Shown one piece after another: positions 18,171 through 60,734 of a stretch of DNA of 64,000 nt (position 1 is its first letter; each line of letters starts with the position of its first letter). The stretch is taken from NCBI RefSeq assembly GCF_008152325.1, contig NZ_CP042243.1, positions 1,803,026 through 1,867,025 on the forward strand, given 5' to 3'. The stretch comes from Crassaminicella thermophila (lineage in GTDB: Bacteria; Bacillota; Clostridia; Peptostreptococcales; Thermotaleaceae). Made by a program: the position numbers and the translations under genes. The notes beneath the pieces were generated by a model. That model made no database searches and was not told where the DNA came from. It saw only the letters and a list, made by a program, of their open reading frames with translations.

Positions 18171-18245
<75 letters not shown>

Positions 18246-18251
18246 ATACAT

Positions 18252-18327: not shown

Positions 18328-18332
18328 ACATC

Positions 18333-18408
18333 TGGCTGGGGTAGCAGGACTCGAACCTACGAATGCCAGAGTCAAAGTCTGGTGCCTTACCGACTTGGCG
18401 ATACCCCA
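18333..18408 (-). tRNA. tRNA-Gln (TTG)
   Basis: 76 nt; third copy. Confidence 0.97.
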
Positions 18409-18417
18409 ACATTTTTT

Positions 18418-18494
18418 TGGGGTGGCTGATGGGATTCGAACCCACGCATGCAGGAGCCACAATCCTGTGTCTTAACCGCTTGACTACAGCCACC
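18418..18494 (-). tRNA. tRNA-His (GTG)
   Basis: 77 nt including G(-1); second copy. Confidence 0.96.
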
Positions 18495-18499
18495 ATATA

Positions 18500-18574
18500 T
18501 GGAGCGGAAGACGGGATTCGAACCCGCGACCCTCGCCTTGGCAAGGCGATGCTCTACCACTGAGCCACTTCCGC
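18500..18574 (-). tRNA. tRNA-Gly (GCC)
   Basis: 75 nt; third copy. The neighbouring Gly(TCC) of array 2 has been cleanly removed here. Confidence 0.97.
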
Positions 18575-18579
18575 ATATT

Positions 18580-18664
18580 TGGTGGAGGAAGGTGGATTCG
18601 AACCACCGAAAGCTAAGCTAACGGATTTACAGTCCGCCCCCTTTGGCCTCTCGGGAATTCCTCC
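18580..18664 (-). tRNA. tRNA-Tyr (GTA)
   Basis: 85 nt class II; third copy. Confidence 0.97.
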
Positions 18665-18669
18665 ATATC

Positions 18670-18744
18670 TGGAGCTGGCGAAGGGAATCGAACCCCCAAC
18701 CTGCTGATTACAAGTCAGCTGCTCTACCGTTGAGCCACACCAGC
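18670..18744 (-). tRNA. tRNA-Thr (TGT)
   Basis: 75 nt; third copy. Confidence 0.97.
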
Positions 18745-18752
18745 AAATTCAT

Positions 18753-18829
18753 TGGCGACCCGGAAGGGACTCGAACCCTCGACCTCCAGCGTGACAGGCT
18801 GGCATTCTAACCAACTGAACTACCGGGCC
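18753..18829 (-). tRNA. tRNA-Asp (GTC)
   Basis: 77 nt; third copy, now directly next to Glu because Val is missing. Confidence 0.97.
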
Positions 18830-18836
18830 AAATTAA

Positions 18837-18911
18837 TGGTGACCCATCCGGGAATCGAACCCGGGTTACCGCCGTGAAAGGGCGGTGTCTTGACCGCTTG
18901 ACCAATGGGCC
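18837..18911 (-). tRNA. tRNA-Glu (TTC)
   Basis: 75 nt; third copy. Confidence 0.97.
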
Positions 18912-18918
18912 TTATTTT

Positions 18919-18995
18919 TGGTAGCGGCGAGTGGACTTGAACCACCGACCTTCCGGGTATGAACCGGACGCTCTAGCCAACTAAGCTACGCCGCC
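18919..18995 (-). tRNA. tRNA-Met (CAT), elongator
   Basis: 77 nt; differs from the array 2 copy by one D-loop base (TTGG instead of CTGG context). Confidence 0.9.
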
Positions 18996-19000
18996 ATATT

Positions 19001-19089
19001 TGGTGCCGGGGACCGGAATCGAACCGGTACGGTCTGTAAGGACCGCAGGATTTTAAGTCCTGTGCGTCTGCCAGTTCCGCCACCCCGGC
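19001..19089 (-). tRNA. tRNA-Leu (TAA)
   Basis: 89 nt class II; third copy, directly next to Met because fMet is missing. Confidence 0.97.
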
Positions 19090-19096
19090 ATTTTTT

Positions 19097-19171
19097 TGGC
19101 TCCAAGGGTGGGACTCGAACCCACAACCTACCGGTTAACAGCCGGGTGCTCCACCATTGAGCTACCTTGGA
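19097..19171 (-). tRNA. tRNA-Asn (GTT)
   Basis: 75 nt; third copy, adjacent to the operon B 5S. Confidence 0.97.
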
Positions 19172-19178
19172 ACAATCA

Positions 19179-19296
19179 AACCAGCGACGACCTACTCTCC
19201 CAAGGCGTCTCCGCCTAAGTACCATCAGCGCTGAAGGGCTTAACTTCTGTGTTCGGTATGGGAACAGGTGTGACCCCTTCGCTATTGTCACTGGAT
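19179..19296 (-). rRNA. rrf: 5S rRNA (operon B)
   Basis: Same core as the other 5S genes. Only about 37 bases separate it from 23S, and unlike operon A there is no promoter in the gap. Confidence 0.95.
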
Positions 19297-19333
19297 TAGA
19301 GGTTGTACCCTCAAAACTGAACAATGCATATTT

Positions 19334-22279
<2,946 letters not shown>

Positions 22280-22447
22280 GAAATTGTATTTTATGCATTG
22301 TTCAGTTTTCAAAGTACATTTTACTTCATAAAATGTACGGCGCCAACAAAATCATTCGTTACACTCATGATTTCTGTTGCTTAAAGTACATCCTACGATT
22401 TGAAAGATCATTTGATCTTTCAAAACTAAACAGTGTAAGTTAAGCCT

Positions 22448-23984
<1,537 letters not shown>

Positions 23985-24033
23985 AAATCTTCGAGGTTAA
24001 AAATTATTGCTGGCTTAATTTCTTACACTGTGT

Positions 24034-35799: not shown

Positions 35800-36025
35800 C
35801 AAAAACTCCCACCTCTTAAATTAAGAGACGAGAGTTTTCCCGTGTTACCACTCTTATTGATACAACATGTATCCACTCTATTCCTCTATAACGGAAGGAC
35901 TCCGTTTTGCCTACTCATTTCAGCAAAAATCTCCAAGGTACGCTTCAATCTTAGTAGTGTATCGGACTCTCACCCTCTCCGATTCGCTTTGACACATCCT
36001 AGGATCTACTCTCCTCTTCACCGAT
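35800..36025 (-). promoter_or_regulatory. T-box riboswitch, arginine specific, controlling argS
   Basis: Minus-strand leader with the T-box sequence AGAGTGGTAACACGGG (about 35840-35855) and a terminator hairpin (35801-35838) that the T-box sequence can displace. The AGAGTA motif and stem I lie at the far end. By analogy with the pheS leader, where TTC follows CTGAAG, the specifier here is CGT (35942-35940) after TTGAAG. CGT is an arginine codon, matching argS. Confidence 0.88.
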
Positions 36026-36046
36026 AAAAGATTCATTTTGACTAAT

Positions 36047-44206: not shown

Positions 44207-44770
44207 TTACTTCTTTTCATCAAAGGTTTCAATAAAAGCATCTAGCTCTTTTCTAGCTTGCACATACTTAATCTGGCTTTCAAATATCTTATTTTGCAGC
44301 TCTTCATTTTCTCTTTTAATATTCTCTAATTCATCATCCTTTAAGTTTAATTCCGATTTTAATCTTTCAATTTCTTTCTTTAATTTTTCACATTCATCAT
44401 TTGTTACGTGATTCTTTTTCTCTTCTTCAAGTTGTTCAATAGTTTTAATATATTCTATTTCTTTTTCCTTAAAAGCAGTAAGTGTTGCTGCTAACTGGCT
44501 TCTTGTTTGCTCTAGTTCTTCTAGTGGCTTCATTGCTTCTTTCTTAAAGTCTTCCATTTCTTGTTTAACTTTAAAATACTCATCAGCTATATTTAAAGAC
44601 GTCAAAACCGCAACCATTGCAGTACTCAGCTTTTTACTTTTTTTGGCTATATCAATCATCTTATCATCAACATAATTGGCAACCTTTTGCATATATTCTC
44701 TAGATTCCTTGCCAACCATTGTATATTCCTGACCATATATTCTAACAATCACTTTTGTTTTTTCACTCAT
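44207..44770 (-). CDS. zapA: ZapA-like cell division protein with extended coiled coil
   Basis: Residues 1-75 form the ZapA domain (VRIYGQEYTMVGKESREYMQ), which bundles FtsZ protofilaments. The C-terminal 110 residues form a long coiled coil, longer than in enteric ZapA but usual in clostridia. In many clostridia zapA lies directly after pheT; here a 12-kb block separates them. Confidence 0.9.
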   Translation of the reverse strand: MSEKTKVIVRIYGQEYTMVGKESREYMQKVANYVDDKMIDIAKKSKKLSTAMVAVLTSLNIADEYFKVKQEMEDFKKEAMKPLEELEQTRSQLAATLTAFKEKEIEYIKTIEQLEEEKKNHVTNDECEKLKKEIERLKSELNLKDDELENIKRENEELQNKIFESQIKYVQARKELDAFIETFDEKK

Positions 44771-45049: not shown

Positions 45050-45904
45050 ATGGATATTGTAAAAATATATCCGCAAGTAGAAGTAGCTCAAATTAGTTCC
45101 TATGAAAATAATAAAATATTTAATCTATGTAAATGCATGTACTTAGGGAAAAAAAATACAAATAATGTTTATCGAATACTTTTTAAATTTCCTGTTTCAT
45201 CAATCCCAGATCAATGTTTAATATTAAAAGCTACACTAAAACTATATGTTCAGTATGCAGGCACACTAATGTCAAGTTCATTTACCCCTTATGCACTATC
45301 ACAACCTTGGAACTTACAAACGGTTACATGGAATAATCAACCATCTTTTTATTCTACTTTATCAGGAGAAACAAAGCTTATAAAAAGAGTAGGTTTTCAT
45401 TCTTTCAATATAACAGAGATGGTTACAAAGTGGTATAGACATGAAATCATAAACTATGGGTTGATTATAAAAAATAATGAATTACTAGATAAATCATATA
45501 AACAGATTAATACTGTTACAAATTCTAATTTAGCCCCTACAGCAGAAATAATCTACACCTCAAAATCTGAAGTAAGTATCGCTTCTACTCGCTTTGTTTC
45601 AAGCATTGAAGAAATAAATACAGACGGACCGTATAGTTTTTCATCTACTATTAATATGTCTCTTACTAAAACAGTCACATGCCATATTAAAAATTTAGGA
45701 AATTTCCCTGTAGAAGTGAAATATCAGATGAGTCCAAACGGTATTGATTTTGTTGATGATTGTCCAGAAACAAGAATAATACCAGGTAATGGAATGATTT
45801 GGTTTGTTCCTTACTCATTTGCAAAGTATGGACGAATTGCAGCAAGAAATGTAGACCCTACTAAAACATCAAGAATTAGAATATGGTATGAGGCACAAGA
45901 ATGA
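45050..45904 (+). CDS. DNRLRE-domain protein with C-terminal DUF6385-like domain
   Basis: 284 residues. Residues 1-165 form a DNRLRE (CBM96-like) beta domain: YRILFKFPVSSIP, VTWNNQPSF and FNITEMVTKWYRHE are the diagnostic segments. Residues 170-284 resemble the DUF6385 domain (KYQMSPNGIDFVDD, WFVPYSFAKYG). DNRLRE domains usually occur in exported surface proteins, but there is no signal peptide. The C-terminal domain is shared with the 212-residue repeat protein at 49633, tying both ends of the block together. Strong AAAGGAGG site. Confidence 0.8.
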   Translation: MDIVKIYPQVEVAQISSYENNKIFNLCKCMYLGKKNTNNVYRILFKFPVSSIPDQCLILKATLKLYVQYAGTLMSSSFTPYALSQPWNLQTVTWNNQPSFYSTLSGETKLIKRVGFHSFNITEMVTKWYRHEIINYGLIIKNNELLDKSYKQINTVTNSNLAPTAEIIYTSKSEVSIASTRFVSSIEEINTDGPYSFSSTINMSLTKTVTCHIKNLGNFPVEVKYQMSPNGIDFVDDCPETRIIPGNGMIWFVPYSFAKYGRIAARNVDPTKTSRIRIWYEAQE

Positions 45905-45917
45905 TAATTTAATAAAT

Positions 45918-45955
45918 AAAAATAGAATAGGCACATACGTTCCTATTCTATTTTT
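45918..45955. terminator. Bidirectional terminator at the head of the surface block
   Basis: A 14-bp perfect stem (45918-45931 with 45942-45955) between two convergent genes; it includes the stop codon of the minus-strand gene. Confidence 0.85.
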
Positions 45956-47721
45956 ATGAAAGCTTTTTTCATCATATTTAGTCCTTCAAAATCAATTTTA
46001 TTAAAAATCTTTATGCTTCTAATAAACTCTCCAAAAGCTAAATTATAAAGCTCATGATTATAATAAAGCTTTGCTAATCTTAACAAAACTTCGTCATTTT
46101 CAATTAGATTTAATAATTGTAATGACTTTTCAAAATTTTCTGGAGATGTAGCCTCAATAAGAATATCTAACAATTCAAAAATAATATCTGCAAATTTTTT
46201 CGATTCTTCTTGATCTTCACTGATAGGATCACAGCTTTTTCCTTCTAATAAATTTTTCAAAGTATAATATATCTTTCTTCTGTTATTGTTTTCAGGATCT
46301 CTTACCATATTCAAAAGCTTAGTAGCATTATACATATTTCCACTTAATATTTCACATAATGCCATCTTATAAATAGCTTTTTCATAAAGCTCTCCCTTTA
46401 TTATCCTTTCAAAATTATTGTATGCTTCTTCATAATTTTTCATAAAGAGCAAGCACATGCCTTTTTTATAAAAATATTTTAAAGAATACGTAATCATTTC
46501 TTCAGCTTTTAATATATATTCATAGGCTATTTTATACTTCCTTTGTGCAAAATATACATCTGAAAGAATCATATACTCCTTTTCATCTAAATTTTTCCCA
46601 AAAAAACCTTCTAATTTTTCTTTTATATCATTTATGTCTCTTTCCTCACTAAATAATATTTTTGCAATTGTATAAATAGGTGATGTAAATCTAGGATTTA
46701 TCTGAAATGCCTTTTTGCAATAATGGTAAGCTTCATCATAATCTTTTAACTCATAATAAATTTTTGCTAAAGCATCATATGCCTTAAAGCTTCCTGCTCC
46801 TTCAATAAAATTTAGATGTATAGGAGATTCTCCCTTATCTAAGCATTTATTCAATTCCTTTATTGCTAGAGAAATTTTGTCTTGTTTTTTTAAAATTCTT
46901 GCTTTTAAAAACATTAAATCCGTAAAATCTATATAATGCTTAAGCCCTTCTTCTATGACTTCTAATCCTTTCTCATACCTCTCTAATCTTTCTAGTGTAG
47001 TAACAATCCTAAATAATAGCTTTGGACTATACTTTTCTTTTAATATAAATTTTTCAAAACCTTCTTTATAATATTTATAAGCTTTTTTATAGTCTCCATC
47101 CTCAAAATATTTATTACCCATATTATAATAAATTTCAGAGTTTACATTTTTATTTTTTATTCTTTTTATATCCTTAATCGGATCTTTCTGTTCAAATTTT
47201 TCAAATTCTATCTGAATCTTTGGCATATATATCCGATCATTATTATCTTTACTATAAAAAGCTACAAGAGAAGTACTATTTTCATCTAAAGCCTTTATCA
47301 ACAATCCATTATTAGGATAAATCTTAGTATACCAATTATTAAAAAACTTTGTTATATCTATTTTTACATAAGTATTCATTTCTTCATTTATCGTAAAGGC
47401 TTGATGGAAAGTCTCATCTATCATTGGTTGATTTGAATAATTTACAGTATTCTCTTCAAACCCTTCTACTATTCTATAAATATGAAATATTTTTTTAAAG
47501 GATGGATTATCATTGCGAACAATATATAGAAGAAGTTCTACCTTATTTACCCTTCCTACTTCCTCTAAAACAGGCAAATCAAAGTACAGCAAACTTCTAT
47601 AAATAGAATGATACTTATATTTCCCAACAAATAAAACATGATAATCTCCATAGTTTTCATATGGCATAGAACTATTAATTGCAGCATCTTTAAAAGGTCT
47701 TTGTTCTATTATTTTTATCAT
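45943..47721 (-). CDS. DNRLRE-TPR protein
   Basis: 592 residues. Residues 1-175 form a DNRLRE domain (YRSLLYFDLPVLEE, NYSNQPMIDETF, DITKFFNNWY). From about 205 to the end there are TPR repeats (YYNMGNKYFEDGDYKKAYKYY). The TPR part is homologous along its length to that of the GT2-TPR neighbour, ending in the same segment (LRLAKLYYNHELYNLAFGEF). The ATG at 47721 follows GAGAGG with correct spacing, while the first ATG touches it. No signal peptide. Same operon as the GT2-TPR gene, about 48 bases downstream. Confidence 0.82.
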   Translation of the reverse strand: MIKIIEQRPFKDAAINSSMPYENYGDYHVLFVGKYKYHSIYRSLLYFDLPVLEEVGRVNKVELLLYIVRNDNPSFKKIFHIYRIVEGFEENTVNYSNQPMIDETFHQAFTINEEMNTYVKIDITKFFNNWYTKIYPNNGLLIKALDENSTSLVAFYSKDNNDRIYMPKIQIEFEKFEQKDPIKDIKRIKNKNVNSEIYYNMGNKYFEDGDYKKAYKYYKEGFEKFILKEKYSPKLLFRIVTTLERLERYEKGLEVIEEGLKHYIDFTDLMFLKARILKKQDKISLAIKELNKCLDKGESPIHLNFIEGAGSFKAYDALAKIYYELKDYDEAYHYCKKAFQINPRFTSPIYTIAKILFSEERDINDIKEKLEGFFGKNLDEKEYMILSDVYFAQRKYKIAYEYILKAEEMITYSLKYFYKKGMCLLFMKNYEEAYNNFERIIKGELYEKAIYKMALCEILSGNMYNATKLLNMVRDPENNNRRKIYYTLKNLLEGKSCDPISEDQEESKKFADIIFELLDILIEATSPENFEKSLQLLNLIENDEVLLRLAKLYYNHELYNLAFGEFIRSIKIFNKIDFEGLNMMKKAFIKIE

Positions 47722-47769
47722 ATTCATCCTCTCACTTTATTTTTTTTGTATATTATACGAATTAAACTT

Positions 47770-49575
47770 TTAGGTCGTGAATGAAATATGTTTATCTGAA
47801 ATTTTTTTCATCATCTCTAATCCCTCTTGATCTATTTTATTAAACATTTTTATAGATCTTATAAACTCCTGATATGCAAGGTTATAATATCCATTATTAT
47901 AGTAAAGCTTTGCAAGCCTTAATAAAACTTCATCATCATTGATAAGATTTAAAAGCTTTAATGATTTTTCAAATATTTCTGGTGTTGCTACTTTAATAAG
48001 AATATTTAATAATATAAATATTATATCTGCAAAAATTTTAGATTCCTCTTGATCATCACTAATGATTTCACAATCCTTGTCTCCTACCAAGTTTTTAAAG
48101 GATTTATAAACAGTATACATATACTCATTTTTATTTTTTTTTGTAATATGAAGTAACTTCTTAGCATTCTCAAAATTATTAGAAAGAATTTCACAAAGAA
48201 TCATTTTATATATAGCCTCTTCATAATATTTTCCTTCTTTAATTTTTTCAAACCATTGATAGGCTTCTTGGTAATTCTTAAGATAAAGCTCACTCATTCC
48301 TATATAATAATATATGTTTTGATCTGTTTTCAAAATTTCTTGCCCCTTTAAAAAGTATTCAAGGGCAATATCATATTTCTCCATGCCAAAGAATATATCC
48401 CCAAGTTTGATATATGCTCCTGCATTTAGATTGTCGCCAAAAAATCTTTCTAATTTAGTCTTTACTACATTTATATCTTTTTCTTTTTTTATTAATATTT
48501 TAGCAATATTATAAAGGGGCATATGAAAAGTAGGCTTTGCCTTGATTGTTTCAATGTAATAATTGTAAGCTTCATCATAGTCCCCAAGTTCAGAATAAAT
48601 TTCCCCTAGTGCATAATATGCTCTATAGCCACCTACATCATTAATATTATATTGTTCTAAAGGAGGCTCTCCCATCTCTATACACTTTTTAAATCCTTTA
48701 ATCGCTAATGAATATTTTTTTTGTCGATGAAACAAACATGCTCTTAAATACTCTAAATCTGTAAATTTAGGATAATACTGAAGCCCATGATTTAACATTT
48801 TCAATTCTTCATCATACATATGCAATTCTTCTAAAGTAATAATCATCTTTAACAAAAGTTTTGGGCTATAAGCAAGATTTGGCATAAAATCTTTATATGC
48901 TCTTTTAAAACATGTAAGGGCTTCCTCAAATCTTCTCAATCTAAGATATTCATTCCCCATATTATACAAGTGAAAATTATTGTTAGGATCTTTTTCTAAA
49001 AGTTTCTTTAAAATTTTCATATTTCTACTTGGTTTATCCTTTTCAAGGGCAATACTTCTTAAATATCCATAATGATAAACTACTATTTTTTCTTTTCCAA
49101 CTTTATTTTCTTTAATAGGATTTATGCTATTATATATTTGTTCGTGTATTGCACCCATGTATTTATATCCTTTATGATTTCTTATTAACCGAATATTTAA
49201 ATTATTAACTGTTTCTAACCCTGGTGTATTGCCAACATAGCTTAGCGTTTGAAAAAGATATATATCTATATTAGGATTATTTAATAACGGAAGAACTTTG
49301 TCTTTATCAGAAGCACTTAACTCCTCATCCGCATCCATTGTTATAATCCAATCCCCTTTTGCTTGTTCTAATGCAAAATTTTTTGCATCACTAAAGTTAT
49401 CATTCCACTGAAAATAAAATACTTTTGCTCCATAGCTTTTCGCTATTTTTACCGTATCATCAGTAGATCCTGTATCTACAACAATCATTTCATCCACAAT
49501 ATCCTTTACACTTTCAAGACATCTCGGAAGATTATTTTCTTCATTTTTTACAATCACACATAAACTTAACAGCAA
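47770..49575 (-). CDS. Glycosyltransferase family 2 - TPR fusion
   Basis: About 601 residues. The N-terminal GT2 domain shows SLCVIVKNEENNLPRCLESV, VVDTGSTDDTVKIA, and the metal-binding DADEEL; its catalytic region ends around residue 210. The rest is TPR. SunS-like and other GT2-TPR proteins glycosylate peptides, which makes a protein acceptor plausible. The ATG at 49593 lies in the ribosome site AAGGAGG; TTG at 49575 is the better start. It lies between the repeat protein and the DNRLRE-TPR gene. Confidence 0.88.
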   Translation of the reverse strand: MLLSLCVIVKNEENNLPRCLESVKDIVDEMIVVDTGSTDDTVKIAKSYGAKVFYFQWNDNFSDAKNFALEQAKGDWIITMDADEELSASDKDKVLPLLNNPNIDIYLFQTLSYVGNTPGLETVNNLNIRLIRNHKGYKYMGAIHEQIYNSINPIKENKVGKEKIVVYHYGYLRSIALEKDKPSRNMKILKKLLEKDPNNNFHLYNMGNEYLRLRRFEEALTCFKRAYKDFMPNLAYSPKLLLKMIITLEELHMYDEELKMLNHGLQYYPKFTDLEYLRACLFHRQKKYSLAIKGFKKCIEMGEPPLEQYNINDVGGYRAYYALGEIYSELGDYDEAYNYYIETIKAKPTFHMPLYNIAKILIKKEKDINVVKTKLERFFGDNLNAGAYIKLGDIFFGMEKYDIALEYFLKGQEILKTDQNIYYYIGMSELYLKNYQEAYQWFEKIKEGKYYEEAIYKMILCEILSNNFENAKKLLHITKKNKNEYMYTVYKSFKNLVGDKDCEIISDDQEESKIFADIIFILLNILIKVATPEIFEKSLKLLNLINDDEVLLRLAKLYYNNGYYNLAYQEFIRSIKMFNKIDQEGLEMMKKISDKHISFTT

Positions 49576-49632
49576 GTCTATCCCCTCCTTCATATATGTA
49601 GCTATCGGATTTAATCCGATAGCTACATTAGC

Positions 49633-50271
49633 TTAGTTATGGGCATTAAAATAAACTGATGCAGTAGCTCCTCCAGAACCTGCTTGCAAGTATAATCTTG
49701 TATATTTGAGGAATTTTTCTGGAACTAACACAACCGTAGAATTAGCAGTCATGACTGCACTAGTTGCATCATTTATAAAATAGCTATCTGCAGTAGTTGG
49801 AGATATTTGTATATTTACAGTAGCTGCTCCTGATGAAGCTATATAGTATGAATACATATTTTTTTCAGAAGTATCTATACTTAAAACTGTCGTTGATGCA
49901 TCTGCACCTAAAACTACTACACTAGATGATTCTGTAAAGTCATTGCTAACAATTTTTACATCTACTGTGTCTGTAATTTTTTGTACATCTGCTACATAGT
50001 TTACTGTTGCTACCGTGTCTACTAAGTCTACTGAACTTACATTTGTTACTTCATTTACTGTTGCTACTGTGTCTACTAAGTCTACTGAACTTACATTATT
50101 TACGGTGTCTACTGTAGCTATATAATTAATTGTATTAATTGTATCTAAGCTACCAATTAGTATTTTACCACTAGCATCTAGTGCTATAGCCCTTGTTGTC
50201 CCACTATCATCCCCATATATCTTTGTTTTTAACTGATCAGCAACATTATTAAATACAATATTATTAGGCAT
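49633..50271 (-). CDS. Repeat protein with DUF6385-like C-terminus
   Basis: 212 residues, rich in V, T, S, N and D. Residues about 40-100 contain 18-residue repeats of the type VSSVDLVDTVATVN; two are almost identical at DNA level (54-bp period). Residues 110-212 resemble the C-terminal domain of the protein at 45050 (NIQISPTTADSYFIND, LVPEKFLKYTRLYL). The serine/threonine-rich repeats are natural acceptors for O-glycosylation. No signal peptide. Strong site AGGGAGGAGG; a sigma-K-like promoter lies about 50 bases upstream of the start. Confidence 0.75.
   Translation of the reverse strand: MPNNIVFNNVADQLKTKIYGDDSGTTRAIALDASGKILIGSLDTINTINYIATVDTVNNVSSVDLVDTVATVNEVTNVSSVDLVDTVATVNYVADVQKITDTVDVKIVSNDFTESSSVVVLGADASTTVLSIDTSEKNMYSYYIASSGAATVNIQISPTTADSYFINDATSAVMTANSTVVLVPEKFLKYTRLYLQAGSGGATASVYFNAHN
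50000..50097 (-). repeat. 54-bp tandem repeat inside the repeat-protein gene
   Basis: Copies 50000-50043 and 50054-50097 differ by one base over 44, at a period of 54 bp, coding for 18 residues. In frame, so copy number can change without frameshift. Confidence 0.85.
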
Positions 50272-50329
50272 TCTTTTCCTCCTCCCTTGATACCATCTAA
50301 GATTAGAAGTTGTCTACCTAATCCTAGTT

Positions 50330-50356
50330 TATATTATGTAAACAAATTGTAAGTGT
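50330..50356 (-). promoter_or_regulatory. Sigma-K-like promoter of the repeat-protein operon
   Basis: Minus strand: CAC, 16-base spacer, CATAATATA, fitting the mother-cell sigma-K pattern AC-N16/17-CATANNNTA. The -35 overlaps the GTGACA of the divergent sigma-A-like promoter. Confidence 0.5.
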
Positions 50357-50383
50357 GACAAAACTAAGTAGCAAAAATATACT
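50355..50383 (+). promoter_or_regulatory. Sigma-A-like promoter of the rfb operon
   Basis: GTGACA (50355-50360), 17 bases, TATACT (50378-50383), about 50 bases before rfbA. Confidence 0.5.
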
Positions 50384-50435
50384 GTATTAGAAGAAAAAAC
50401 TTTAGCTCAATATGGTTCTAGGAGGAGATATAGTA

Positions 50436-51200
50436 ATGAAAGGCATCATCTTAGCAGGAGGGACTGGGTCAAGGCTTTATCCCTTAACAAAAGTTACCAA
50501 TAAGCATTTACTTCCAGTAGGAAAATATCCTATGATTCATCATTTAGTAGCTAAAATGAAGCAAGCAAGCATAAAAGACATTATGGTCATTTCTGGAAAA
50601 GAACATATGGGATCAGTCGTAAGTTTATTGGGCAGCGGCTATGAATATGGAGTAAATTTCACCTTCCGAATACAAGATCAACCTGGAGGAATCGCTCAAG
50701 CTTTAGGTTTATGTGAATCGTTTGTTAAAAATGATAAATGTATTGTAATCCTTGGTGACAATATTTTTGAAGATAATATCAATCAATATGTTAAAAACTT
50801 TGAAAAGCAAGAGAAAGGAGCAAAAATATTAATCAAACAAGTGAAAGATCCTACAAGATATGGCATTGCTGAACTTAAAAATAATAAAATAATAAATATT
50901 GAAGAAAAACCGAAAAAACCTAAAAGCACTTATTGCGTTACAGGCATCTATATGTATGATCCTAGAGTATTTGATATTATTAAAACCTTAAAACCTTCTA
51001 ACAGAGGTGAACTTGAAATTACGGATGTTAATAATTGGTATATACAGGATGGTTCTCTCACCTATGATATCTTAAATGGATGGTGGACTGATGCAGGAAC
51101 TTTTCATTCTTTACTTGATGCAAATATATTGGCCAAAGATATAGATTTAGAGCATATATTGAGTAGAGATTATAAAAATAGGCAGGTGAAATTTCTATGA
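50436..51200 (+). CDS. rfbA: Glucose-1-phosphate thymidylyltransferase, short form
   Basis: Makes dTDP-glucose, the first step to dTDP-L-rhamnose. 254 residues with the nucleotidyltransferase signature GIILAGGTGSRLYPLTKVTNK, and GDNIFEDN, EEKPKKPKS, GWWTDAGTFHSLLDAN. It lacks roughly the last 40 residues of classical RmlA, as in other short forms. ATG at 50436 has AGGAGGAG. First of five overlapping genes. Confidence 0.93.
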   Translation: MKGIILAGGTGSRLYPLTKVTNKHLLPVGKYPMIHHLVAKMKQASIKDIMVISGKEHMGSVVSLLGSGYEYGVNFTFRIQDQPGGIAQALGLCESFVKNDKCIVILGDNIFEDNINQYVKNFEKQEKGAKILIKQVKDPTRYGIAELKNNKIINIEEKPKKPKSTYCVTGIYMYDPRVFDIIKTLKPSNRGELEITDVNNWYIQDGSLTYDILNGWWTDAGTFHSLLDANILAKDIDLEHILSRDYKNRQVKFL

Positions 51201-52075
51201 AAGTGTTGATTACAGGAGGAAATGGTCAGCTTGGAAGTACAATAAAAGAAATGCTTAGAGAAAAAAAATGTTCATTAGGCAAAATTGATAAAACTTACTT
51301 TCATTGTAAAGTAATTGCTGAAGGTAAATATACATTAAATATAACTTCCTTAGAAAATGTTAAAAATTATTTTATAAAATCCAAACCACATATAGTTATA
51401 AATACAGCAGCCTATACAAATGTAGATGGATGTGAATCAAACATAGATTTAGCTTATAAAGTAAATGCTTTAGGTCCTAGAAACTTGGCAATAGCATGTG
51501 AAACAATAAATGCAAAGCTCATTCATATCTCTACAGATTATGTTTTTGATGGAAAAAGCAAACTTCCTTATAAAGAATTTGATTTACCTAACCCCATAAA
51601 TATTTATGGAAAATCAAAATACTTAGGAGAAGAATATGTAAAACAATTTTGTTCTAGGTATTTTATTGTTCGAACAAGTTGGCTTTATGGACAAATTGGA
51701 AAAAATTTTGTAAAAACAATACTAAAAACTTCAAAAGAAAAAAAATATCTTGAGATTATAGAGGATCAGACAGGAAATCCAACCAACGCACAAGATCTAG
51801 CCTATCATATTTTGAAATTAGCATTAACAGATGAATATGGTATTTATCATTGTACAGGTAATGGTCAATGTAGCTGGTATGAATTTGCAAAAGCGATTAT
51901 TCAGTATGCTAATATAGATTGTAAGATTAATCCAATTTCTTCTTATGCATATAAACCTATTGCCAAAAGACCATCCTACTCATCACTAGATCACATGATG
52001 CTAAGAAATACCATTGGAGATGCAATGAGATATTGGCAAGATGCATTAAAAGATTTTTTAAATACTCTTTCTTGA
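51197..52075 (+). CDS. rfbD: dTDP-4-dehydrorhamnose reductase
   Basis: Last step of dTDP-L-rhamnose synthesis. 292 residues, Rossmann motif ITGGNGQLGSTI, and the SDR catalytic YGKSKYLGE. Overlaps the rfbA stop by four bases (ATGA). Confidence 0.94.
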   Translation: MKVLITGGNGQLGSTIKEMLREKKCSLGKIDKTYFHCKVIAEGKYTLNITSLENVKNYFIKSKPHIVINTAAYTNVDGCESNIDLAYKVNALGPRNLAIACETINAKLIHISTDYVFDGKSKLPYKEFDLPNPINIYGKSKYLGEEYVKQFCSRYFIVRTSWLYGQIGKNFVKTILKTSKEKKYLEIIEDQTGNPTNAQDLAYHILKLALTDEYGIYHCTGNGQCSWYEFAKAIIQYANIDCKINPISSYAYKPIAKRPSYSSLDHMMLRNTIGDAMRYWQDALKDFLNTLS

Positions 52076-52087
52076 TAGGAGGTTGCT

Positions 52088-53140
52088 ATGAAAATTTATT
52101 TAGTTACAGGTGGCGCAGGATTTATTGGTTCAAATTTTATAAAATATATGTTTAAAAAATATAAACATATTAAAATAATCAATGTAGATAAATTGACTTA
52201 TGCGGGAAATCTTGAGAATCTAAAAGAAGTAAAAAACCACCCTCATTACAAATTTATAAAAGCTGATATATGTGATAAAAAAGCAATTGAAAATATATTT
52301 AAAGCAAATGATATAGACTATGTTATAAATTTTGCAGCAGAATCCCATGTAGATCGAAGCATTAAAGATCCTTCCATTTTTGCTAAAACAAATGTATTAG
52401 GAACTGTAAATTTATTAAATTGTGCGAAAGCTGCATGGGAAACAAATAATGGATTTAAACTAGGAAAAAAGTTTTTACAGGTATCCACAGATGAAGTATA
52501 TGGTTCATTAGAAAATACAGGATATTTTACAGAAACTTCACCCCTAGACCCTCACAGTCCTTATGCTTCCAGTAAAGCATCAGCTGATCTAATGATAAAA
52601 GCATATTTTGATACCTATAAAATGCCTGTAAATGTCACAAGATGTTCCAACAACTATGGCCCTTATCAATTTCCAGAAAAGCTCATTCCCCTTATGATTT
52701 ATAATTGTTTAAATAAAAAGATTTTACCTGTTTATGGTGATGGATTAAATATTAGAGATTGGCTTTATGTAATAGATCACTGCAAAGCTATAGATCTGGT
52801 TATTGAAAATGGCAAACTGGGTGAAATCTATAATATTGGCGGACACAACGAAAGAACAAATATCTATATTGTAAAAACAATCATTCAATATATCAAGAAA
52901 AATGTTGATCCTACTATAACAGAAAACCTTATAAAATTTGTAGAAGATCGAAAAGGTCATGACAGAAGGTATGCCATAGATCCTACAAAGATAAGAAATG
53001 AACTAGGCTGGAAGCCTAAAACAAGTTTTGAAGAAGGTATTAAAAAAACAATTCAATGGTATTTAGAAAATAATACTTGGCTTGATAATATAACTAGTAA
53101 AGAATATCAAGATGCCTACAATAAAATGTATGGAAATTAG
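52088..53140 (+). CDS. rfbB: dTDP-glucose 4,6-dehydratase
   Basis: Second pathway enzyme; 350 residues. NAD motif VTGGAGFIGSNFIKYM, STDEVYGSL and the catalytic YASSKASADL (SYxxxK type). Preceded by AGGAGG and only 12 bases from rfbD. Confidence 0.95.
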   Translation: MKIYLVTGGAGFIGSNFIKYMFKKYKHIKIINVDKLTYAGNLENLKEVKNHPHYKFIKADICDKKAIENIFKANDIDYVINFAAESHVDRSIKDPSIFAKTNVLGTVNLLNCAKAAWETNNGFKLGKKFLQVSTDEVYGSLENTGYFTETSPLDPHSPYASSKASADLMIKAYFDTYKMPVNVTRCSNNYGPYQFPEKLIPLMIYNCLNKKILPVYGDGLNIRDWLYVIDHCKAIDLVIENGKLGEIYNIGGHNERTNIYIVKTIIQYIKKNVDPTITENLIKFVEDRKGHDRRYAIDPTKIRNELGWKPKTSFEEGIKKTIQWYLENNTWLDNITSKEYQDAYNKMYGN

Positions 53141-53148
53141 GTGAAAAA

Positions 53149-53724
53149 ATGAATAAATTTCAATTTATTGAAACCCCTATCAAAGGATTATACATTATCG
53201 AACAAAATGTGTTTGAAGACAAAAGAGGCTATTTTTTAGAAACTTACAATTACAAAGATTTTAAAAAAGCAGGACTAAATATGGTCTTTGTTCAGGATAA
53301 TCAATCAAAATCAAAAAAAGGAGTTCTTAGAGGACTTCATTTTCAAAGAAAATATCCTCAAGGAAAATTAGTAAGAGTAATAAAAGGCGAAGTTTTTGAT
53401 GTAGCAGTAGATCTGCGAAAAAAATCTAATACTTTTGGGAAATGGTATGGATGTATTTTAAATGAGAAAAATAAAAGACAGTTTTATATCCCAGAAGGTT
53501 TTGCCCATGGATTCTTGGTCCTTTCATCTGAAGCAGAATTTCTATATAAATGTAGCAACTTTTATCATCCTGAAGATGAATATGGTATTATTTGGAACGA
53601 TTCAGATATAAACATTAACTGGCCACTTGATTACATTCATGAAATTATATTATCTGATAAAGACAAGTGTTGGATAAGTTTTAAAGAATACAAAAACCTT
53701 ATAATAAGGAATGATGCTCAATGA
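53149..53724 (+). CDS. rfbC: dTDP-4-dehydrorhamnose 3,5-epimerase
   Basis: 191 residues; cupin-type epimerase with catalytic RGLHFQ and PEGFAHGFLVLS. Follows rfbB by 8 bases, completing the rfbA-D-B-C set for dTDP-L-rhamnose. Confidence 0.94.
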   Translation: MNKFQFIETPIKGLYIIEQNVFEDKRGYFLETYNYKDFKKAGLNMVFVQDNQSKSKKGVLRGLHFQRKYPQGKLVRVIKGEVFDVAVDLRKKSNTFGKWYGCILNEKNKRQFYIPEGFAHGFLVLSSEAEFLYKCSNFYHPEDEYGIIWNDSDININWPLDYIHEIILSDKDKCWISFKEYKNLIIRNDAQ

Positions 53725-56700
53725 AAACAAGTATTGTTATATTAACTTATAATCAATTGTATTATACAAAACTTTGTATAGATAGCATTCGAAAATACAC
53801 AGATAAAGATACTTATGAAATTATTGTAGTAGACAATCATTCTACTGATGGAACTGTCCAGTGGCTTAAAGATCAAGAAGATATTCAAACTATATTTAAC
53901 AAAGAAAATTTAGGATTTCCTAAAGGTTGTAATCAAGGAATAAAAGTATCCCAAGGTGATAGCATACTGCTTCTAAATAATGATGTAATTGTTACCCCAA
54001 ATTGGCTTTCTAATTTAACTACATGTCTATATAGCTCTAATGATATTGGCGCTGTAGGAGCTGTTACAAATAATTGTTCTTATTATCAAACAATAAATGC
54101 TTCATATAAAAATATTGAAGAAATGATAGCCTTTGCAAAAAAAAATAATGTTTCTAATAAAGATGCTTGGGAAGAAAGATTAAAATTAATCGGATTTTGT
54201 ATGCTTATCAAAAAAGAAGTAATAGAAAAAGTAGGTCTATTAGATGAGAGATTCTCCCCTGGAAATTTTGAAGATGATGATTATTCTTTCAGAACTAGAA
54301 AAGCTGGATATCGATTAATGCTTTGTAAAGATGTTTTTATCCATCATTTTGGCAGTACTTCTTGGAAAGAAAATCTAAATAACTTTACTGAACTTTTAAA
54401 CAAAAACAAACAAATTTTTCAGGATAAGTGGGGTTTTGATGCCACATATTTCTCATTTATTAGAAATGAAATCATTGATTTAATTGATAAACCAAAATAT
54501 CAAAATATTAATGTTTTAGAAATAGGTTGTGCTTGTGGTGCTACTTTGCTTCAAATAAAAAATATTTATAAAAATGCTAATCTATATGGAATAGAATTAA
54601 ACGAAAAAGCTGCAGAGATTGCTAATACTTTTGCAAATATTGTAGTGGGAAATGTTGAAAATTATAATTTTCATTATGAAGAAGAATATTTTGACTATAT
54701 TATATTTGCAGATGTACTCGAACATTTATATAATCCATGGAACGTATTAAAAAATATAAGAAAATATCTTAAAAAGGATGGAATCATTTTAGCAAGTATC
54801 CCTAATATCATGCACTATAGTATTATTAAAAATTTATTAAATGGAAATTGGAGATATGAAAATAGTGGACTTCTAGATAAAACACATATTAGATTTTTTA
54901 CTTTAAATGAAATAAATAACATGTTTGCTACCGCAAATTATAAAATCGAAACAATTACTGGATCTATTCTACAACAGAGTGAACATGATATGAAATTCAT
55001 CAATTCGTTAAATACAATAACAGGAAAAGACATGACTGAGCAATACGAATTTTATCAATATTTTGTAAAGGCTAAAAAAATAGAAGATGATATACGTAAA
55101 AATACACAGAAAGAAAATATATCACACAAAACAAAAATGAATTTTGTCACATTATTTCCGGAAACTGAAAACGTTCATTTAACAAAAGATGTTGGAATAA
55201 TCCCTTTTATTATGGGTAAATATTATAATTATAATGCTAAAATAGCGTGTTATAAAAATGGTTCTTATCCATATCTTTACAAGGAAGTACAAGGATTAAA
55301 AGTAGAATTCATTGAAAAAATAACTGGGAACCCCCTTGAAGATGGGCAAAATTATTTAATAAAAAATGCTAAATCCATAGATATTTTACATTTGTTTCAT
55401 TTAACAACAAGAACCTTACTATGGATAGACACCTATAAAACTTTAAATCCTAATGGAAAAATTTATTTAAAGCTTGATGCTAATATAAATATAACCAATC
55501 ATAAACTTAATCATTCTGTTTTTAATATTTTGAAAAAATGTGACTTAATAAGTGTAGAAACTAAGTATTTATATGAATATATGAATAGAGAATGGCCAGT
55601 AAGGGTTGAATATATACCAAATGGATTTTATGATTTCACAAAACATAAAAGTGTTGACTATTCAGAAAAAGAAAATATAATCATTACCGTTGGAAGGATA
55701 GGCTTAGATGTTAAAGCCAATGAAATTCTTATGGAAGCTTTTAGATTAGTCGCTCATAAACTCCAAAATTGGAAACTAAAAATGATTGGCCCAATACAAG
55801 ATAGCTTTAAAATTTATGTAAATAATTTTTTCGAAAAAAATCCTGATTTAAGAGATAAGATCATTTTTACAGGCGAAATATCAGATAAAAACATCTTAGA
55901 AAATGAATATAGAAAAGCAAAAATATTTTGTCTAACTTCTAGGATTGAAAGTTTTGGATTGGTTTATGTAGAAGCCGCAAAAAATGGATGTTTTATTATT
56001 TCATCAAATATACTTCCAGCAATGGATGTAACAAACAATAAAAAATTTGGAGATCTATTTGAAGTAGATGATATAAATCATTTATCAGAACTATTAGTAA
56101 AATACTCAAATCAAGAAAAACATCTTAAAAAAAATTGTAAAACAATACAAAAATTTGCATATGATCATTTTAGATGGGAAGATATATGTAAAAATATTTA
56201 TCACTACTTGACAAGTAATGTAGAATTACTTGAAAAACAAAATGTTTTAAGTCAAGATGATATTCAATTTAATAAAGTTAAAGAAATTATTTTAAATGGT
56301 TTAAAAAGCAATAATCCTTATGATCAGGTATTCATAAATAGGCTTTATTATAATTCAGAAGCACTAAAATTATCTTTTTGGAAGAATCATTTTGAACTAG
56401 AAGCTTTAAATTATTATAAAGAAATTAATGGTAAGATATTAGACTTTGGATGTGGTTCTGGTCACTTGGATATATATGCAGCAAGATTAGGAAAAACAAT
56501 ACATGGAATTGATTTAAGTCCAATTGCTATTGAAATTGCTAACTATTTGAAAAGCTGTGAACCGACATCTATTCAAAAAAATTTGACATTTTCATTAGAA
56601 GATGTAATGCAAGAAGCACAAACAAATATTAAGTATGATTCTGTATGGGCATCTCATGTTTTTGAACATATAAAAAAACCCAAGAAAATAATAATTGGTC

Positions 56701-56894
56701 TTCGAAAAAAAGTAAAGGAGAAAGCTTTTATGTTAGTTTCCGTTCCCCTTGGATATGCATACGATGATCCAGATCATGTAAATCATTTTATGAATGAAAT
56801 TGAATTAAAGCGTTATTTTGAAAAATTTATAGCAGTTATACGAATGGATACAGATTATAAAAATAAAGTTATACATGCTTTATTGCGATTCTAA
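53721..56894 (+). CDS. Four-domain glycosyltransferase/methyltransferase protein
   Basis: 1,057 residues in one frame. (1) GT2 at 1-240: SIVILTYNQLYYTKLCIDSI, VVDNHSTDGT, LLLNNDVIV. (2) SAM methyltransferase at about 260-410: VLEIGCACGATLLQI and FADVLEHLYNPW. (3) GT-B (group 1) transferase at about 530-830: ITVGRIGLDVKANEIL, SRIESFGLVYVEAAKNG with the sugar-nucleotide glutamates. (4) Second methyltransferase at about 880-1057: ILDFGCGSGHLDIYAARLG and SHVFEHIKKP. It overlaps rfbC by four bases. Probably builds a rhamnose-containing, O-methylated glycan; the order of steps is inference. No transmembrane segments, so cytoplasmic. Confidence 0.88.
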   Translation: MKTSIVILTYNQLYYTKLCIDSIRKYTDKDTYEIIVVDNHSTDGTVQWLKDQEDIQTIFNKENLGFPKGCNQGIKVSQGDSILLLNNDVIVTPNWLSNLTTCLYSSNDIGAVGAVTNNCSYYQTINASYKNIEEMIAFAKKNNVSNKDAWEERLKLIGFCMLIKKEVIEKVGLLDERFSPGNFEDDDYSFRTRKAGYRLMLCKDVFIHHFGSTSWKENLNNFTELLNKNKQIFQDKWGFDATYFSFIRNEIIDLIDKPKYQNINVLEIGCACGATLLQIKNIYKNANLYGIELNEKAAEIANTFANIVVGNVENYNFHYEEEYFDYIIFADVLEHLYNPWNVLKNIRKYLKKDGIILASIPNIMHYSIIKNLLNGNWRYENSGLLDKTHIRFFTLNEINNMFATANYKIETITGSILQQSEHDMKFINSLNTITGKDMTEQYEFYQYFVKAKKIEDDIRKNTQKENISHKTKMNFVTLFPETENVHLTKDVGIIPFIMGKYYNYNAKIACYKNGSYPYLYKEVQGLKVEFIEKITGNPLEDGQNYLIKNAKSIDILHLFHLTTRTLLWIDTYKTLNPNGKIYLKLDANINITNHKLNHSVFNILKKCDLISVETKYLYEYMNREWPVRVEYIPNGFYDFTKHKSVDYSEKENIIITVGRIGLDVKANEILMEAFRLVAHKLQNWKLKMIGPIQDSFKIYVNNFFEKNPDLRDKIIFTGEISDKNILENEYRKAKIFCLTSRIESFGLVYVEAAKNGCFIISSNILPAMDVTNNKKFGDLFEVDDINHLSELLVKYSNQEKHLKKNCKTIQKFAYDHFRWEDICKNIYHYLTSNVELLEKQNVLSQDDIQFNKVKEIILNGLKSNNPYDQVFINRLYYNSEALKLSFWKNHFELEALNYYKEINGKILDFGCGSGHLDIYAARLGKTIHGIDLSPIAIEIANYLKSCEPTSIQKNLTFSLEDVMQEAQTNIKYDSVWASHVFEHIKKPKKIIIGLRKKVKEKAFMLVSVPLGYAYDDPDHVNHFMNEIELKRYFEKFIAVIRMDTDYKNKVIHALLRF

Positions 56895-57003: not shown

Positions 57004-59400
57004 TTATCTTAAAGTTGCACCTAATTTTTCTTCTAACTCTTTTACGATTTTTTCATGCACCTTTGTTACTTCTTCATCTGTTAATGTTCTATCCTTCGCT
57101 CTATAAGTTAATGAGTAAGCAACACTCTTATAACCTTCTTGAATTTGCTTTCCTTTATACACATCAAACAATTTAATGCTTTCTAGGATTTCTCTTCCAT
57201 TTTCCTTTACAATATCTTCTATTTGCTTTACATATATATCCTCTTTTACAACTAAAGCCATATCTCTAGTCATAGCAGGATATTTAGGAAGTTCTTTATA
57301 AACTCTATCTAGTCTTGTAATTTGATAAATGATATTAAAATCAATTTCTCCTACATATACTCTTGTATCAATATTATAATTTTCCATAACATCTGGATGG
57401 ATTTCTCCAATAACCCCTAATGTATGGTTTCCATAAACAATATTTGCACATCTTCCTGGATGAAAGCTTGGATGATTTTTTTCTGGAATATATTCATAAT
57501 CAGTAATACCTAGTCTTTCAAACAATCTTTCAACAACACCCTTTAAGCTATAAAAATCTATTTCTTTTCCATACATCCCAATGGTTAATACTTTTTTCTC
57601 TATTGGAAGACTATTAACGGGAATACTCTTTGGAATAAATACATTTCCTAATTCAAAGGCCTTTGCATACTCAACATTACGGTTATAGTTTCTTGCTAAT
57701 ACTTCAAGCATATTCCCCATTAATGTTGTTCTCATAATGCTTGTTTCTTCACCAAGAGGATTGATTACTTTTACAACTCTTCTCATAAAACTTTCCTCTG
57801 GTATACATAATAAATCAAAAGTTCTAGGACTTACAAATGAATAGGTTAAAATTTCATTTAATCCTACTGCATTTAAAGTATTTTTGGCTAATTCTTCTAT
57901 AATCTGACCATTTGTCTTAGCTCCTTGACTGTTTCCTTTTGGAATTGTCATTCCTAAATTATTAAAGCCATAAATCCTTGCAATCTCTTCCACAAAGTCT
58001 ATTTCCTGGGCAATATCTAATCTGAAAGTAGGTACAGTAACTAGGAATTTATCTTCTTTAATTGTTACTTTCATCTCTAATCTTTCTAAAATATCAATCA
58101 TTTCTTCATTTGTTAAGTTTGTACCTAATAAATCATTTATTCTCTTTGGTCGAACCTCAACTACTTTCTCTTCTGCTCTATTTGGATAGATATCAATAAC
58201 ACCAGCTACTACTTTTCCTATTCCTAATTCTTCGACCAATTGACATACTCTATTAGCAGCAATTATTGCTATGTTTGGATCTATTCCCTTTTCAAATCTT
58301 GCAGATGCTTCAGTTCTTAATCCCAATTTTTTAGATGTTGTTCTTACTGAATGAGAACTGAAATTTGCAGATTCAATAAGAATAGTTTTTGTGCTTTCAC
58401 TTACCTCTGAATTTAATCCACCCATAACACCTGCTAATGCTACAGATTTTTTTCCATCAGCAATAATAAGAGTATCTTCATCTAATTTTCTTTCTACTTC
58501 ATCTAATGTTGTAAAAGTTTCTCCATTTTCTGCTCTTTTTACAATTATTTTATTTTCTTCTAATTTTTCTAGATCAAAAGCATGAAGAGGTTGCCCAAGC
58601 TCTAGCATTACATAATTGGTTATATCTACAATATTGTTTATTGGACGCATGCCAGCTTTCATTAATCTATTTTGCAGCCATTGTGGAGATGGCTTTATTT
58701 CTACATCTTTTATAACCCTTGCCACATATCTATTGCAAAGATCACTATCTAATACTTCAACAGATGCATAATCTTTTATATTATCAACTTCTTCTTTAAT
58801 ATTTATTTCTAAATTCTTTAAAGGAATATTAAATGTTGCTGCAGTTTCTCTTGCCATTCCTAATATACTTAAACAATCTGGTCTATTTGGTGTAATCTCA
58901 AATTCAATAATATAATCATTTAGTCCTAATATATCTTTTATATCTGTTCCTAATGGATAAGCTTCATCTAAAATATAAATACCATCTTTTTCTTGATGCA
59001 TAGGCAATACTTTATCTGCTATTCCCAGTTCTTCCCCAGAGCACATCATTCCATTAGATACTACCCCACGAAGCTTTCCTTTCTTTATTTTTGTACCATC
59101 AGGAAGTCTTCCTCCATTTAAAATCACTGGAATATATTGACCTTCCTTTACATTTTTTGCTCCTGTAACGATTTGAAGAACTTCATCTCCTATATCTACT
59201 TGTGTTACTACCAGTTTTTCTGCATCTGGATGTTTTTGTATTTCTAAAATTTTTCCTACTACAATTTTATTGATTTTTTCTCCTAAATTTTCTACAGCCT
59301 CAACCTTAGAACCTGACATAACAAGCTCATCACTTAATTTATCAATATCAATATTTTCTATATCTACATATTGTTTTAACCATTCTACTGGTACGAACAT
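57004..59400 (-). CDS. pheT: Phenylalanyl-tRNA synthetase beta subunit
   Basis: 798 residues with the full bacterial domain order: N-terminal tRNA-binding OB fold (GKILEIQKHPDAEKLVVTQV), B3/B4 editing domain, B5, catalytic-like core and C-terminal FDX-ACB (KELPKYPAMTRDMALVVKED). Follows pheS by 21 bases with an AGGAGGA site. Confidence 0.97.
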   Translation of the reverse strand: MFVPVEWLKQYVDIENIDIDKLSDELVMSGSKVEAVENLGEKINKIVVGKILEIQKHPDAEKLVVTQVDIGDEVLQIVTGAKNVKEGQYIPVILNGGRLPDGTKIKKGKLRGVVSNGMMCSGEELGIADKVLPMHQEKDGIYILDEAYPLGTDIKDILGLNDYIIEFEITPNRPDCLSILGMARETAATFNIPLKNLEINIKEEVDNIKDYASVEVLDSDLCNRYVARVIKDVEIKPSPQWLQNRLMKAGMRPINNIVDITNYVMLELGQPLHAFDLEKLEENKIIVKRAENGETFTTLDEVERKLDEDTLIIADGKKSVALAGVMGGLNSEVSESTKTILIESANFSSHSVRTTSKKLGLRTEASARFEKGIDPNIAIIAANRVCQLVEELGIGKVVAGVIDIYPNRAEEKVVEVRPKRINDLLGTNLTNEEMIDILERLEMKVTIKEDKFLVTVPTFRLDIAQEIDFVEEIARIYGFNNLGMTIPKGNSQGAKTNGQIIEELAKNTLNAVGLNEILTYSFVSPRTFDLLCIPEESFMRRVVKVINPLGEETSIMRTTLMGNMLEVLARNYNRNVEYAKAFELGNVFIPKSIPVNSLPIEKKVLTIGMYGKEIDFYSLKGVVERLFERLGITDYEYIPEKNHPSFHPGRCANIVYGNHTLGVIGEIHPDVMENYNIDTRVYVGEIDFNIIYQITRLDRVYKELPKYPAMTRDMALVVKEDIYVKQIEDIVKENGREILESIKLFDVYKGKQIQEGYKSVAYSLTYRAKDRTLTDEEVTKVHEKIVKELEEKLGATLR

Positions 59401-60489: not shown

Positions 60490-60720
60490 ATAAAAAAATC
60501 TTCAGTCCCAAAAGGGACGAAGATTTCTCCGCGGTACCACCCTAATAGTTGAAAAAATTCAACCACTTATTTGACTTAACGGCGTCTACCGATAGAACCT
60601 ACTATTCTTTCAATTCTATAGTTCAAGAGGGAACTTCAGTTATGTTGTATTTTAGAAATGCTCTCAGCCTCTGACATTTCCTCTCTGTAAAGCAAACCAT
60701 AACCTACTCTTCTCTATCAT
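60490..60720 (-). promoter_or_regulatory. T-box riboswitch, phenylalanine specific, controlling pheST
   Basis: Minus-strand leader. The consensus AGGGTGGTACCGCGG lies at 60529-60543, with the terminator hairpin at 60492-60527 followed by a T run. The specifier TTC at 60633-60631 (CTGAAG-TTC context) is a phenylalanine codon. Stem I with AAGAGTA lies near 60710. Confidence 0.92.
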
Positions 60721-60734
60721 TACTGATATCCATA

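Follow-up and report, generated by a model that had tools for sequence, protein, structure and literature searches.

What is made by a gene block in which a glycosyltransferase, a repeat protein and a complete dTDP-rhamnose pathway lie side by side, and on what does the glycosyltransferase act? The block lies in Crassaminicella thermophila, in a 64,000-nt stretch of contig NZ_CP042243.1 (positions 1,803,026 to 1,867,025, forward strand; assembly GCF_008152325.1), here called the window. It consists of nine genes between a zapA-like gene (44207-44770, minus strand) and a pheT-like gene (57004-59400, minus strand), which by eye we take to be zapA and pheT themselves. Four genes, here named A to D, encode modular proteins, and the others are the four rml genes and that of a glycosyltransferase/methyltransferase protein (GTMT). 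Our preferred reading, to which we assign a probability of about 0.68, is that the block makes a glycosylated spore-surface protein, C (a family 2 glycosyltransferase, GT2, joined to tetratricopeptide repeats, TPR) O-glycosylating the repeat protein D in the manner of SgtA and BclA3 of Clostridioides difficile, with D as a new acceptor.

Domains were assigned by Pfam and NCBIfam profile searches of the window's open reading frames (ORFs). DNRLRE/CBM96 is over cut-off in both A (97.5 bits, cut-off 34) and B (100.5 bits), joined to DUF6385 in the former (69.8 bits, cut-off 26.8) and to a TPR region in the latter; C combines GT2 (97.6 bits, cut-off 23.3) with TPR, and D has DUF6385 (PF19912, 63.1 bits) downstream of its repeat region. 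These results agree with a sequence-only reading of the locus, made before any database search, which had proposed this modular make-up, the kinship of the C-terminal domains of A and D, and the homology of the TPR halves of B and C, which are 50% identical. The full rhamnose pathway and the four-domain protein that it listed are also present: RmlB, RmlC and RmlD exceed their equivalog cut-offs, RmlA, a short form (262 aa as listed), reaches 249 bits, below its equivalog cut-off of 360.65 bits, and in GTMT a GT2 domain is followed by a methyltransferase, a GT1 domain and another methyltransferase stretch. The rmlB of the block is the only close rmlB in the genome, three other matches being 30-34% identical. 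C probably starts at TTG 49575 (601 aa) rather than ATG 49593; its relatives start similarly.

The neighbourhood is conserved across genomes, a point on which the sequence-only reading had staked itself, and its recurring core is A-D-C. We compared 16 genomes of the window's family, its own genome included (14 stretches mapped), and 393 genomes of the class (20 stretches from 20 DUF6385 genomes mapped, and G121 mapped separately as L093; the DUF6385 genomes G037 and G212 lie outside the mapped stretches). DUF6385 was found in 11 of the 16 family genomes, the window's genome among them. The arrangement of A followed by B-C-D on the opposite strand is kept in L030, L033, L034 and L036; B-C-D also stand together in L035 and in L029, L031, L039 and L040, where D is short and at a contig end. 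L027, of the same family, has A-D-C without B, and L028, L032, L037 and L038 have A-type genes without B, C or D within the stretch, L032 and L037 being on the same contigs as L039 and L040. Between D and C of L040 there is an ORF resembling IS200/IS605-type OrfB by eye (921-2138).

In the class, DUF6385 occurs in 24/393 genomes (23 above cut-off), and A-D-C or D-C stand together in 12 of the 20 stretches (L072, L073, L077, L078, L080-L085, L087 and L088). Genus f29 g48 has DUF6385 proteins without C in seven stretches (L070, L071, L074, L075, L076, L079 and L086); its genome G066 has, on a separate contig (L095), C together with a D-type gene and a DNRLRE gene that is cut. One further DUF6385 stretch, L089, is without C. 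Full-length C (about 600 aa, matched along almost the entire query; a hand count, from which a 687-residue protein of G268 with 32% identity is excluded) occurs in 18/393 class genomes, 15 of which also have DUF6385 as against 24/393 overall (Fisher 2e-18, a guide only, as the test ignores genome relatedness), and in all 15 a D-type gene adjoins C. A scan of genome contigs with C as query gave only one weak match, in a Lachnospiraceae metagenome-assembled genome (L026). L093 (C and D) and L091 (C), from another family of the class, have zapA- and pheT-like neighbours, the same chromosomal site as in the window.

The distribution of B bears on a proposal of the sequence-only reading that the TPR regions form one scaffold. 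B and C would then work as a single machine, both TPR halves binding D while the DNRLRE domain of B holds the growing glycan and the GT domain of C works on the same molecule. The 50% identity of the TPR halves speaks for this, as does the company of B and C in nine family relatives (L029, L030, L031, L033-L036, L039 and L040) and in L078. Outside the family, however, L078 alone among the 12 A-D-C or D-C loci has full B; of the 11 others, L081 has a TPR-only protein. L027 does without B inside the family, and sugar binding by DNRLRE is putative. As a general mechanism the scaffold did not hold, since full B is limited to the window's family and L078, and the single machine seems to us unlikely, with roughly a one-in-four weight.

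C is akin to enzymes with protein acceptors. In a sequence search of the PDB it matched the GT domain of GmaR (3.3e-39), SunS (7msp, 2.2e-24) and, lower, 7x9r, which is presumably another part of GmaR. GmaR modifies flagellin with GlcNAc, and the TPR domain was proposed by its authors as the acceptor-recognising part (PMC9638930, available portion). L114, which starts MITISLCMI, the same as the translated published sgtA forward primer, and which lies directly upstream of a GXX protein, is likely an SgtA ortholog, and C matches it with an E value of 1.4e-32. In a GT2-TPR tree (54 rows, quick method, midpoint rooting only; a non-random sample, as stretches L027-L089 had been picked by DUF6385 and L090-L109 by C), all 27 D-labelled rows fall within one group of 30 with moderate support (SH-aLRT 83), the remaining three being the three C genes without D, and the label D changes 3 times, where shuffling gives 18.2 on average. 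The collagen-associated rows, seven in all, are split between two other groups, one of which contains L114; C of the window is in the D-associated group and not in that of L114. Row L081_14706, with D and collagen both nearby, groups with L114; in this stretch (4006-16786) a D gene and two C genes lie beside GPT-repeat collagen-like genes and an SgtA-type GT.

In L094, L101, L103, L106, L107 and L108 a sequence motif identifies flagellin-like genes no more than 8 kb from GT2-TPR genes. A flagellin gene of L109 adjoins a GT2-TPR/GTMT fusion (1386-4685 of that stretch), and L104 has the same fusion (443-3745); both are beside rml genes, and the fusions tie a C-like enzyme to a GTMT homolog. Modification by C of flagellin or another protein, with D a mere neighbour, would accord with these cases and with GmaR. 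We rate it very unlikely, given that the motif finds no flagellin-like ORF in the D-associated stretches, that a D-type gene is adjacent in 15/18 genomes, and that the GT tree follows the neighbour. Since C is related to GmaR, SunS and SgtA, and has relatives encoded next to flagellin or collagen-like genes, D probably represents a third class of acceptor, in keeping with the earlier suggestion that the glycosyltransferase acts on the repeat protein. S-glycosylation of the SunS type was considered and rejected: C has GT2 homology to SunS (NCBIfam, 96.2 bits) but is far below the equivalog cut-off of 350, and D of the window has no Cys (0-2 in its homologs).

The spore assignment of our preferred reading draws on promoters and neighbours. 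The sigma-K consensus for a clostridial appendage region is given as a/cACa/c-N16-CATA-N3-TA (PMC5749712, the part available). A looser pattern (AC, a spacer, CATAnnnT and then A or G, within 120 bases upstream) was counted after dropping ORFs below 100 aa, duplicates and ORFs with less than 120 bases upstream, with gene classes set by BLAST and our own motifs. It precedes 12/23 D genes, six of which come from one family and are non-independent, and 7/12 collagen-like genes, as compared with 31/571 others; the counts were 7/33 for C, 1/18 for B-like and 4/19 for short GT2-TPR genes. Upstream of A in the window, L034 and L036 we saw by eye GAAC-N16-GAATAnnATA, a possible late-sporulation promoter with one mismatch. 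Extra SPOCS domains (SipL, PF12673) share contigs with DUF6385 genes in G002, G008, G009 and G012, and SPOCS genes cluster with A in four family stretches (L028, L029, L032 and L037). Arrays of single-SPOCS-domain genes surround DNRLRE-DUF6385 genes in L028 (7992-15746), L029 (5093-13006) and L037 (446-10200), with a collagen-like gene inside the latter two. A hydrophobic leader was absent from A, B, C and D of the window and from the 18 D homologs examined, as expected for assembly from the mother-cell cytosol.

The block might instead build a vegetative wall or capsule glycan, with D and A as vegetative surface proteins. dTDP-rhamnose is common in vegetative walls, the region upstream of rmlA bears a sigma-A-like box (by eye), and co-occurrence of DUF6385 with SpoIVA is not significant. 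Yet A, B and D have neither a leader nor LPxTG, D shares its sigma-K-like promoters with collagen-like genes, and A has SPOCS neighbours in the four family genomes; we regard the vegetative alternative as improbable. The sequence-only view of a surface-glycan block is thus kept in part: instead of serving surface glycans in general, the block probably belongs to late sporulation.

Several results weigh against a spore-surface D/C pair. Strict promoter matches in the window number 3 against 2.5 expected, so a single match is no evidence; the sigma-K-like motif was missing in 7/19 D genes in a first count, and neither A (3/23) nor SPOCS-like genes (3/26) are enriched for it. No SPOCS gene flanks the block in the window's genome, where a fourth SPOCS match is far off. 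SpoIVA is present in 21/24 DUF6385 genomes as against 288/393 (p 0.077, not significant), and of those without it G381 also has no Spo0A over cut-off, G063 and G086 having Spo0A over a cut-off below which the model also scores in non-spore-formers. Full-length C occurs without D in G161, G143 and G099, a CBM96 protein adjoining C in G143 (L091). D of L088 and L095 was recognised by BLAST and the N-terminus only, the class DUF6385 search having matched other genes of those genomes and not the C-terminus of D. A hydrophobic stretch at about residue 520 makes membrane contact of C possible. The rml genes are absent beside the block in L036 and several distant loci, which indicates that rhamnose is not essential to the core.

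The proposed acceptor has an unusual stalk. D homologs share a conserved N-terminus (MPNNIVFNN.A.QLKT.IYG in the window), in most a C-terminal DUF6385, and between them a repeat region very variable in length, seemingly complete proteins having 190 to 417 aa. Over residues 39-101 of the window's D, V, I or L comes first in 21/21 triplets, and aliphatic residues take only 2 of the other 42 positions. Unbroken triplets also occur in family homologs (L030 37/37, L033 67/67, L034 30/30, L035 75/75, L036 48/48 and L040, which is cut, 15/15) and outside the family (L081 73/73, L095 48/48). In all nine rows, chosen since the pattern was already visible and using the best-scoring segment of each, none of 2000 shuffles per row reached the observed aliphatic concentration, and among 759 locus ORFs such runs appear at the threshold used in 8, every one D. 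The 18-residue repeat of the sequence-only reading corresponds to a DNA repeat with 2.2 copies of a 54-bp unit, but is itself built of triplets. The best higher repeat length is 15, 18, 21, 33 or 39 residues (L040 left out), always a multiple of three, so it is the triplet that is kept and not a fixed coil. Ten D homologs (L027, L072, L077, L080, L082-L085, L087 and L088) have a different, non-triplet repeat, and that of L093 is intermediate; related ends can therefore carry different stalks. In 21 D proteins the repeat region is 19-39% Ser/Thr; within the triplets these residues favour the third position over the second in 7/9 rows, with equal numbers in L036 and the reverse in L040. The stalk is V/I/L-x-x and not collagen G-x-y: the collagen family PF01391, matched in 10/16 family genomes, has no match in D or in the window's genome, nor in the DUF6385 genomes G003, G006 and G015.

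The stalk of D could be a new fibrous architecture: a fibre, either threefold helical or bundled, in which valine recurs every three residues in the place of collagen's obligatory glycine, and whose Ser/Thr-rich third position is sugared by its own GT2-TPR enzyme; we offer this tentatively and think it rather doubtful. To our knowledge no V-x-x triplet fibre is known, though no literature search was aimed at such proteins. Were it true, spores would carry a counterpart of the BclA stalk that can do without glycine at every third place, and a simple fibre at that, which could be made as peptides. That the stalk stays in phase while the higher repeat length changes raises the question of which fold would accommodate an aliphatic side chain once every three residues. 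An AlphaFold model of D from a two-row alignment had a mean pLDDT of 36.7 and was not used; that of A (53.6) showed at best a jelly-roll-like sandwich for DUF6385. The latter model, with Ena1B, Ena2A and Ena3A among its structure matches, would allow DUF6385 proteins to polymerise as Ena-like spore appendages, the glycan being secondary. With a pLDDT this low, rmsd values of 5.7-9.1 Å to the Ena proteins, and a match list that also contains picornavirus capsids, PirA, SIDT1 and many unrelated jelly-rolls, we hold this to be most unlikely.

A phage origin of the whole block was likewise discarded. A matched 2 of 50,697 phage records, in the DNRLRE region only, and a scan of viral contigs with A found no relative. 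In PHROGs D had no match and A and B matched virion-structural and unknown families weakly; C matched a phage-borne beta-1,4-glycosyltransferase family (3.2e-36), so that phages do carry C-like enzymes.

A palindrome separates D from C. A strong stem is visible by eye in all 20 D-C junctions folded (without shuffle control), with a sequence that differs between families. Within the window's family, the arms of the stem are almost identical among 5 sequences (9/13 pairs invariant, no covariation), and 7/16 genomes contain the exact pattern, each of them once. The hairpin fits a stop or brake that would keep D above C in amount; the near-invariance of the arms (49601-49623) exceeds the needs of a hairpin alone. 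A small hairpin in the D leader has two-sided changes in 3/10 predicted pairs (6 sequences).

Under the preferred reading, a sigma-K-type promoter would drive late expression of D in the mother cell, in excess over C, with the hairpin after D ending or attenuating the message. Cytosolic C may grip D by its TPR half and add the first sugar to Ser/Thr of the stalk; the rml enzymes would supply dTDP-rhamnose, and GTMT might extend and methylate the glycan. D would then attach by one end to an exosporium- or crust-type layer of the spore surface, with DUF6385 as a globular end and the stalk as a variable-length, sugar-bearing spacer. A, which has the same end domain, could accompany D on the surface, and B could be a non-catalytic, C-related partner in part of the range. 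The features are listed in Table 1.

Table 1. Features of the gene block, in window coordinates
Feature	Description	Position	Strand	Basis
A	DNRLRE/CBM96 + DUF6385, 284 aa, without hydrophobic leader	45050..45904	+	Profile search, homologs
B	DNRLRE + TPR, DNRLRE in place of the GT of C	45943..47727	-	Profile search, alignment to C
C	GT2 + TPR, probable protein O-glycosyltransferase	47770..49593	-	Profile and PDB sequence searches
D-C palindrome	Hairpin between D and C, arms invariant, one place in genome	49601..49623	.	Pattern search
D	Repeat protein, 212 aa; conserved N-terminus, triplet stalk, C-terminal DUF6385	49633..50271	-	
DUF6385 of D	Residues 133-211	49639..49875	-	Pfam
Stalk of D	21 unbroken V/I/L-x-x triplets, residues 39-101	49969..50157	-	
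D leader hairpin	5' leader hairpin of D mRNA	50299..50325	-	Paired changes in homologs
D promoter	Sigma-K-like, CACA-N15-CATAATATA	50330..50357	-	Motif match
rmlA	Short form, likely start 50436	50412..51200	+	Profile search
rmlD		51197..52075	+	Profile search
rmlB		52088..53140	+	Profile search
rmlC		53149..53724	+	Profile search
GTMT	GT2-MT-GT1-MT protein (MT, methyltransferase), 1057 aa	53721..56894	+	Profile search

Elsewhere in the window, two full rRNA operons, a third 5S gene and 50 tRNA genes lie in large repeated arrays (8041-23985). T-box leaders occur at 60510-60729 and 35821-36030, one of them just upstream of a pheS-like gene that we take to be pheS.

No paper naming DUF6385 was found in a literature search, and the association described here links the domain to a testable role; it would also add a third class to the acceptors of GT2-TPR enzymes, next to flagellin and collagen-like proteins. 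Among known systems, BclA of Bacillus anthracis, which bears a rhamnose/anthrose glycan, has a variable-length triplet stalk and a globular C-terminal domain, and D resembles it in the stalk and, as proposed, in the globular end. A rhamnose-containing glycan is described on the exosporium (PMC6947953, available part). The BclA stalk is however a collagen triplet, for which the window's genome has no PF01391 match. Spore rhamnose of Bacillus subtilis depends on the four sigma-K-controlled genes spsIJKL, and in the portion of PMC4191935 available it is tied to a spore polysaccharide and not to a D/C pair. Listeria GmaR, as far as the accessible text of its report goes, shares with C the order GT2 then TPR and a protein acceptor, but that acceptor is flagellin and GmaR carries an antirepressor domain, whereas C has no flagellin neighbour by motif.

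The sequence-only reading knew of no described system with this combination, a statement that is not supported, for SgtA-BclA3 of C. difficile is a close working parallel, though in the available part of PMC7157674 one without DNRLRE, DUF6385 or rml. There SgtA is a GT2+TPR protein whose gene lies immediately upstream of bclA3, and it places O-GlcNAc on Thr of BclA3 repeat peptides, an O-linked sugar on a spore-surface protein. The likeness is that here too a GT2+TPR gene adjoins a repetitive acceptor-type gene (15/18 class genomes with full-length C), and that the acceptor in the window has Thr-bearing triplets. The differences are that the candidate acceptor has V/I/L-x-x or other repeats and DUF6385 instead of collagen GXX, that C is about 240 residues longer than SgtA (358 residues), and that A, B, the rml genes and GTMT are additional in the present block.

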